Positions 4,923 to 6,599 of a stretch of 64,000 nt of DNA are shown in pieces (the first letter of the stretch is position 1; every line of letters begins with the position of its first letter). The stretch spans positions 1 through 64,000 of the forward strand of contig WNLJ01000031.1 of assembly GCA_017114885.1 (NCBI GenBank), read 5' to 3'. The notes beneath the pieces are model-generated. The model searched no databases, was not told the DNA's origin, and saw only the letters and a list, made by a program, of their open reading frames with translations. Position numbers and translations under genes: made by a program. Source of the DNA: Neisseriaceae bacterium PsAf (lineage in GTDB: Bacteria > Pseudomonadota > Gammaproteobacteria > Burkholderiales > Neisseriaceae).

Positions 4923-6599
4923 TTACTCCTTAGTTGATTCAATGTCTTTGAATCGAATGCTAGTCGCATCCCATTCACCTTTAAATAATTCTTTCAATTT
5001 ACTTGCTATCTTATCAGAGTTTAGATACTCTAAACCTTTTCTTTGCATCTCTAAATCATATACCTGTTTTAATTCAGCGTATGTCTTTAAATTTTCTGTC
5101 CATTTTTCCCACGTTACTTGCAAATTAAATAAGCTCATAAAAGCCTTCGCAATATTTTTTTTGCCTTCGCTCAGTATATCTTTACTAAAGTCATGCTCAT
5201 TTTGTATGGCACAAACAATTTCATGATTATTAGCACTCACCAATGCCATTTGACGCGTTAAAATAACATTTGTTCCAATTTTTCGATTGACTTCTTGTAT
5301 GTATTTAAGCCATTCATCAGTACTAATAATAACATTACTGACTAATTCTAATTTACTTTCGTCATATTTATTTTCTAAATGATTTAATTCTTGAAAAGCC
5401 TTATCATGCGAAACTGTTTTGCTAGGAATAATCTTGTCATTTGGTTCATTAGTTTGAGGAACTATTTTTTTTTTTGAACTTTCAGCTAAAGTTTGAATAT
5501 TATCACTATTGTTATCTTTTAAAAAATAAGGTTGGAAAGATAACATTCTCATAATAGTCATTAAAAAACCAGTATATTCATCAGGAGCAATAATCTGATC
5601 CTTTTTACCATTGATAATCGTTTGATAATAAAGTTGAATCTCTTCATCTGATAAAATATCAACCAATACATTAAACTTTTTACTTTCTGGATGCAGATTT
5701 AAGGAAAACAACTTAGCAGTTGCTAGATCTTTCAAAACCAATGCCATCTCATCCAATAAAGCGTTAAATCCTACTAATTGATATGATAGTTGCTGAACTT
5801 TTGCGTACAGTTCATTTTTATTCTCTGCATGTAATTCTAGAAAAATATCATATAAAAAATCTCTATTAACAACACCTAACATTTTTTGCACTACATCCGT
5901 AGTCAATTGGCCATTCCCTAATGCTATTGATTGGTCTAATAAACTTAAAGCATCTCTCATGGACCCATTAGCTGCTCTTGCAATTAAATACAAACTTGAT
6001 TCTTCATAGCTAATATTTTCTTCACCTAAAACATGTTTTAAATAGTCTGAAATTTGTTCTGATGTCAAATTCTTTAATACAAATTGTAAACAACGACTTA
6101 AAACAGTAATTGGAACCTTATGTGGATCTGTTGTTGCTAAGATAAACTTAACATGGGGTGGTGGTTCTTCCAATGTCTTTAACATCGCGTTAAAAGCACT
6201 TTTTGAAAGCATGTGCACCTCATCTATGATGTAAACTTTAAATTTACCTGCTGTTGGCATATACTGAGCATTTTCTAAAACCTCTCGGATATTATCAATC
6301 CCTGTATTAGAAGCCGCATCTATTTCTAATAAATCAACGAATCTACCTTCATCAATACCAATACAAGCATCACAATGCCCACATGGCTCACCATTAACTG
6401 GGTTTTCACAATTTAGGCTTTTGGCTAAAATACGCGCAATAGTTGTTTTCCCAACCCCTCTCGTTCCTGTGAGCAAGTAAGCATGATGCAAACGAGATTG
6501 TTGGATAGAATTCAACAATGCTTGTGTCACATGCTCCTGACCAACTAAATCTGCAAACTTTTTAGGCCGCAGCTTCCTAGCTAATACTTGGTAAGCCAT
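4923..6599 (-). CDS. dnaX: DNA polymerase III subunit gamma/tau
   Basis: The 558-residue protein carries the clamp-loader AAA+ core: Walker [10 protein letters not shown] near residue 45, a zinc module with [16 protein letters not shown] near 64-79, Walker B IDEVHMLS, and the SRC sensor in VLSRCLQF. Domain III ends near residue 370. A charged linker and a C-terminal region that would bind the polymerase alpha subunit and helicase follow. It is shorter than E. coli tau (643 residues). At codons 375-379 there is an unbroken run of 11 A, where a one-base slip would yield a gamma-length product. The start overlaps the mltB stop by one base and ybaB follows after two bases. Confidence 0.96.
5465..5475 (-). 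other. A11 tract in dnaX, candidate slippage site
   Basis: On the coding strand the codons read TCA AAA AAA AAA ATA, an uninterrupted run of 11 A. Losing one A puts TAG directly after the third lysine codon, giving a protein of 378 residues. Gaining one A gives five further codons (Asn-Ser-Ser-Ser-Asn) and then TAA. Either product would contain domains I-III and lack the tau-specific part. Thermus thermophilus dnaX makes gamma by transcriptional slippage on an A9 run, and E. coli by ribosomal frameshifting. That this site works the same way is inferred. Confidence 0.5.

Follow-up and report, generated by a model that had tools for sequence, protein, structure and literature searches.

The dnaX gene of Neisseriaceae bacterium PsAf, a Neisseriaceae-related symbiont of the louse Polyplax serrata (PMC9376444), carries a run of 11 adenines (A11) on its coding strand, which is very likely a selected decoding-slip site giving a gamma-type clamp-loader subunit besides the full-length tau. 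In the proposed mechanism, transcripts or ribosomes would slip one or more bases on A11. In-frame reading would yield the 558-aa tau, and out-of-frame reading would meet a stop within 0–5 codons and release a gamma-type subunit of 378–383 aa, made of domains I–III and a linker stub, without the tau C-terminal domain. We infer the short protein, the existence of both forms and their ratio from sequence. Slippage toward a gamma-type subunit had been suggested in a preliminary description of this DNA, and it is supported by the conservation of A11, the genome-wide avoidance of A runs and the recurrence of poly-A in relatives. Decoding slippage in dnaX is already known, and the louse-symbiont gene is probably a new Thermus-type case in an unstudied lineage.

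The window, i.e. the whole 64,000-base stretch analysed here, belongs to the PsAf genome (G000; 1,814,374 bases). One congener, a sister species (G001; 1,607,491 bases), was compared, and the genus-level comparison is based on these two genomes. Among named organisms, the best hit was Neisseria elongata. Within the window, the neisserial DNA-uptake sequence occurs at chance level, and an Rfam scan returned one tRNA and nothing else. The coordinates of all features are listed in Table 1.

Table 1. Features of the dnaX region in the window, inverted dnaX genes of genus g75, and lysine tRNA genes of the two louse symbionts
Feature	Position	Strand	Basis
dnaX, full-length product tau, 558 aa	4923..6599	-	ORF; TIGR02397 and PRK07994-type DnaX models; Pfam domains
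A11 tract (coding strand), candidate slip site	5465..5475	-	read directly; exactly 11 A also in the sister species (L002)
TAG reached immediately on loss of one A (or gain of two)	5462..5464	-	simulated slips
TAA reached after NSSSN on gain of one A (or loss of two, or -1 ribosomal shift)	5449..5451	-	simulated slips; sequence
Domains I-III (residues 1-357), common to tau and the putative gamma	5529..6599	-	Pfam PF13177, PF22608, PF12169 to residue 354; 87% identity with G001
Disordered linker (residues 358-426) holding the tract	5322..5528	-	pLDDT <50 at 357-426; 29-47% identity with G001 outside KKKI
Tau-only C-terminal domain (residues 427-558), missing from the putative short product	4923..5321	-	65% identity with G001; folded elements from residue 427
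Inverted dnaX of g75	L119, L120, L122, L126, L128, L136		genomes G155, G156, G158-G161
Two lysine tRNA genes (CUU and UUU)	G001 L246:3867-3942, L282:11764-11839; G000 C4:218-246, C32:29258-29286		

The coding context of the tract is TCA AAA AAA AAA ATA GTT, in which A11 begins in codon 375 and extends over codons 375–379, exactly where it had been described. No other A/T run in the window has more than 9 bases, and its 11 A, past domain III, exceed the nine taken as the minimum for a Thermus-type run. The A9 runs that the preliminary description named as comparators, in tonB, hrpA and the RNB gene, are present on the coding strands. Tau is encoded in a single 558-codon ORF, with stops in the other two frames after 0 and 5 codons. 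In simulated slips, tracts of A10 and A13 lead to an immediate stop (378 and 379 aa), and tracts of A12 and A9 lead to a stop after KNSSSN (383 and 382 aa), in agreement with the predicted TAG on deletion of one A (378 aa) and stop five codons after addition of one (383 aa). These products had been said to end right after domain III. They do end past it, but 21–26 residues beyond, inside the disordered linker. The Pfam match to domain III ends at residue 354. An AlphaFold2 model (mean pLDDT 63, of low overall confidence and used for the linker only) has pLDDT below 50 at residues 357–426 and resumes a fold at residue 427, which places the slip site in a disordered segment that links the gamma part to the domain found in tau only. 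A second run, A8 at codon 480 in the tau-only domain, has equal length in the dnaX genes of the window and the sister species (L002).

Long A runs are rare in these genomes. G000 contains 13 A/T runs of at least 10 in 1.81 Mb, of which four reach 11 and none is longer. The three 11-base runs other than the dnaX tract comprise one in a 146-aa ORF without a match in G001 and two outside any ORF of at least 80 aa. In G001 (1.6 Mb), 58 sense runs in coding DNA have nine or more A, 6 have ten or more and 1 has eleven or more, compared with 116, 36 and 11 in synonymous shuffles, and the single sense A11 in ORFs of at least 100 aa is that of dnaX, where the shuffles expect 11. A/T runs of at least 10 are ten times denser outside ORFs than inside. 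Such depletion of A runs in coding DNA can also stem from replication slippage (PMC1088944). Three A/T homopolymers of 28–30 bases in G001 (C1:41578-41607, 216773-216802 and 788580-788607) far exceed the other runs and are either real or assembly artefacts.

The tract might have arisen by accident in an AT-rich genome with a lysine-rich linker and simply be tolerated, which we regard as improbable. When only the linker codons are shuffled, A11 is reached in 1.3% (G000) and 4.5% (G001) of cases, and close out-of-frame stops are common: an immediate stop on deletion together with a stop within 4 codons on insertion is found at about 2.5–3.5% of sites in the window's genome. The stop geometry alone was therefore rejected as proof of selection. 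The earlier impression was that the geometry looks selected; the near stops by themselves are weak evidence for this. An accident is however at odds with a genome-wide depletion to which dnaX is the sole exception, with the equal length of the tract in both species, with the decay of control runs and with the recurrence of poly-A in GC-rich relatives.

DnaX of the two species is 75% identical. G001 reads TTA AAA AAA AAA ATA AAT TAT GAG, again exactly A11, in which loss of one A leads to an immediate TAA and gain of one to a TGA after NKL. The persistence of the tract and its out-of-frame stops despite the availability of AAG, which had been proposed as a check in relatives, is thus seen in the one congener, with stops in both shifted frames. 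The linker around the tract is diverged (47% and 29% identity on its two sides, compared with 87% in domains I–III and 65% in the tau domain), and the codon preceding the tract differs, TCA in G000 and TTA in G001, both ending in A. Among the other A8–A9 runs in window genes with a G001 ortholog, one of eight keeps its length (the A8 at dnaX codon 480), and two A10 runs on the sense strand of G000 genes have shrunk to A7 and A5 in their G001 counterparts. Because exactly 11 A and both stops are kept in the sister species inside a diverged linker, the sequence comparison excludes chance in an AT-rich genome as the source of the dnaX tract. The preliminary description had insisted that this possibility be dealt with, and the depletion of coding A runs and the reappearance of linker poly-A at 62–67% GC both speak to it.

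It is also conceivable, with a probability about as low as that of an accident, that selection on the protein maintains the lysines as a basic linker patch, and that A11 follows from codon bias. KKK is present in both species and AAA makes up 78–83% of lysine codons. Given the peptide KKKI, the probability of keeping its four codons is 0.41; synonymous retention by itself thus lacks significance and was discarded as proof of selection. A basic patch leaves unexplained why a genome avoiding long A runs has its unique sense A11 among ORFs here, why the differing preceding codons TCA and TTA both end in A, and why poly-A occurs in relatives with a different peptide.

Another reading, which we consider most unlikely, is that the tract is a replication-slippage hotspot, for phase variation or gene erosion, and not a decoding site. 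dnaX is essential in well-studied bacteria, which counts against a hotspot, as do the intact frame of dnaX in both species, the intact tau domain and the equal tract length. On the other side, long A runs do mutate, and in Blochmannia vafer and B. floridanus the dnaX frame is shifted at a homopolymer within the tau-only region (PMC3017870). Blochmannia and Buchnera resemble the louse symbiont as AT-rich insect symbionts with long A/T runs read via slippage; in those genomes slippage restores a frame that is broken (for dnaX, within the tau-only region), whereas the frame in the window is intact and slippage would shorten the product (PMC3017870).

Poly-A past domain III recurs across Burkholderiales. 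In the 90 codons following domain III of dnaX from 66 other genomes of the order, 12 genes hold eight or more consecutive A (0.76 expected) and 9 hold nine or more (0.29 expected), both expectations being derived from shuffled linker codons. Domains I–III of the same 66 genes, four times the length of the linker, contain no run of at least 8 A. Several of the poly-A genes have 62–67% GC, with A10 in G013 and A9 in G048, G051 and G095, and a chance origin of A9–A10 in these relatives is very unlikely. Out-of-frame stops lie near the tract in some relatives and at a distance in others, so not every tract need be in use. In other families of the order, A9–A10 just past domain III of dnaX can be seen at L323, L321, L319, L026, L029, L038, L304, L332 and L329.

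As for the machine that slips on A11, RNA polymerase is somewhat favoured over ribosome sliding by the features of the site, as in Thermus thermophilus. The tract is pure poly-A in genomes with a second lysine tRNA (CUU), and it lacks AAG, a Shine-Dalgarno sequence and a hairpin common to both species. There is no A_AAA_AAG heptamer, as no AAG lies in or beside the tract in G000 or G001. The 25 nt upstream of the tract in the two louse-symbiont dnaX genes, ATATTCAAACTTTAGCTGAAAGTTC and CTACAATATCAGATAACGATCGTTT, contain no Shine-Dalgarno-like stimulator. A downstream stem-loop is absent in G000 (MFE -0.7, z +2.2) and weak in G001 (-5.4, z -2.6), and is not shared. The T. thermophilus dnaX, with transcriptional slippage on A9, is alike in that a single ORF read in frame gives tau, an uninterrupted A run lies past domain III, stops are near in both other frames and two lysine tRNAs are present (PMC1088944, PMC5009743). 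The louse symbiont differs in being an AT-rich insect symbiont of the Neisseriaceae with A11, which is long enough for ribosome sliding too.

Production of the short form on the ribosome, by a -1 frameshift at A_AAA_AAA or by sliding on the three AAA codons with mRNA that is uniformly A11, is a serious possibility to which we give clearly less than even weight. With three lysines (K3) encoded by A11, a cell-free E. coli system made the truncated product robustly, and with A9 or A10 it made little (PMC4363877), which puts the published threshold of ribosome sliding at three AAA codons on A11. Neisseria, in the same family, uses a ribosomal dnaX site (PMC3711429), and in-phase A_AAA_AAR or poly-A sites of dnaX in the order occur mostly in genomes with UUU as the only lysine tRNA detected. 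A ribosomal route has to do without an upstream Shine-Dalgarno stimulator and, apart from the weak one in G001, a downstream hairpin, and in E. coli the shiftiness of A_AAA_AAA falls far below that of A_AAA_AAG (PMC5009743). The -1 frameshift site of E. coli and Neisseria lies in the same gene region, and its short product also ends slightly past domain III; the louse genus differs from both in lacking AAG, the Shine-Dalgarno stimulator and a shared hairpin, and in carrying a tRNA-Lys(CUU) gene.

Other Neisseriaceae have different dnaX slip sites. In genus g2, which includes Neisseria, an in-phase A_AAA_AAG is located about 30–40 codons past domain III in 40 of 45 dnaX genes, with tails of 1–13 codons in the -1 frame; Neisseria has already been listed for this signal (PMC3711429). 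A9 is found in dnaX of G162 and G179. In the six species of genus g75, the in-frame dnaX ORF ends at codon 377–381, just past C_CCA_AAA, and the -1 frame encodes the C-terminal region of tau. A strong downstream hairpin is present in 6 of 6, with z from -2.6 to -4.9 in the five folded against shuffles, and its stems vary in sequence between species with pairing kept. C_CCA_AAA is among the shift-prone patterns in E. coli (PMC4066793), and the inverted architecture, in which gamma is made by a stop and tau by recoding, has been described for other bacteria (PMC3711429, PMC5009743). The two-ORF genes of this kind in GeneTack clusters (Chlorobium and others) often have poly-A, with A10 in nine species (PMC3711429), and those of g75 have C_CCA_AAA. 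The window's dnaX is not inverted, since its tau is in frame and gamma would require the slip. In one g77 genome only (L213, G173), the dnaX frame breaks right after RMLAFA, probably by sequencing error or as a pseudogene and not by recoding. In the DnaX tree, rooted by midpoint only, a branch of length 1.37 leads to the louse-symbiont genus, beside g75, so slip sites may have changed in either direction.

The site types can be compared with the lysine tRNAs. Both louse-symbiont genomes carry tRNA-Lys genes for UUU and CUU. Within the family, tRNA-Lys(CUU) is present in g1, in most g77 genomes, in 4 of 6 g75 genomes with dnaX and in G102; it was not found in any g2 genome, where UUU alone was detected. 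All family A_AAA_AAG sites (40 of 40) are in genomes without detected CUU and none in CUU genomes, a pattern confounded by phylogeny because all of these sites belong to one genus; family genomes without CUU outside g2 lack the site too. Across the order, 13 of 36 genomes in which UUU alone was detected have an in-phase A_AAA_AAR or poly-A site in dnaX, against 1 of 40 genomes that carry CUU (p 0.0002), and an earlier genome set collapsed to family states gave p 0.028 for site type against CUU. These counts do not support a general association of poly-A sites with tRNA-Lys(CUU); it is apparently the absence of A_AAA_AAG alone that fits the presence of CUU, and the link is correlative. The order-level counts suit ribosomal slippage in lineages with UUU as the sole lysine tRNA detected. 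Against that background the louse genus, which combines CUU with poly-A, is unusual and resembles Thermus. According to a review, E. coli has one lysine tRNA, for which AAG is shifty, and Thermus has two, which is perhaps why RNA-polymerase slippage is used there (PMC5009743).

We tentatively propose, at somewhat less than even confidence, that the family keeps a short clamp-loader product while the decoding trick changes (A_AAA_AAG, A9, A11, inverted C_CCA_AAA with a hairpin). A CUU gene would push a lineage off A_AAA_AAG, and the louse genus might be an independent Thermus-like case that combines two lysine tRNAs with poly-A slippage. The family offers a natural comparison for the question why some bacteria use ribosomal frameshifting for gamma and Thermus uses RNA-polymerase slippage. 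If the proposal is true, tRNA gene content would be tied to how bacteria obtain different forms of an essential replication protein. It also indicates that even an insect symbiont whose genome is reduced apparently has reason to keep a short DnaX form.
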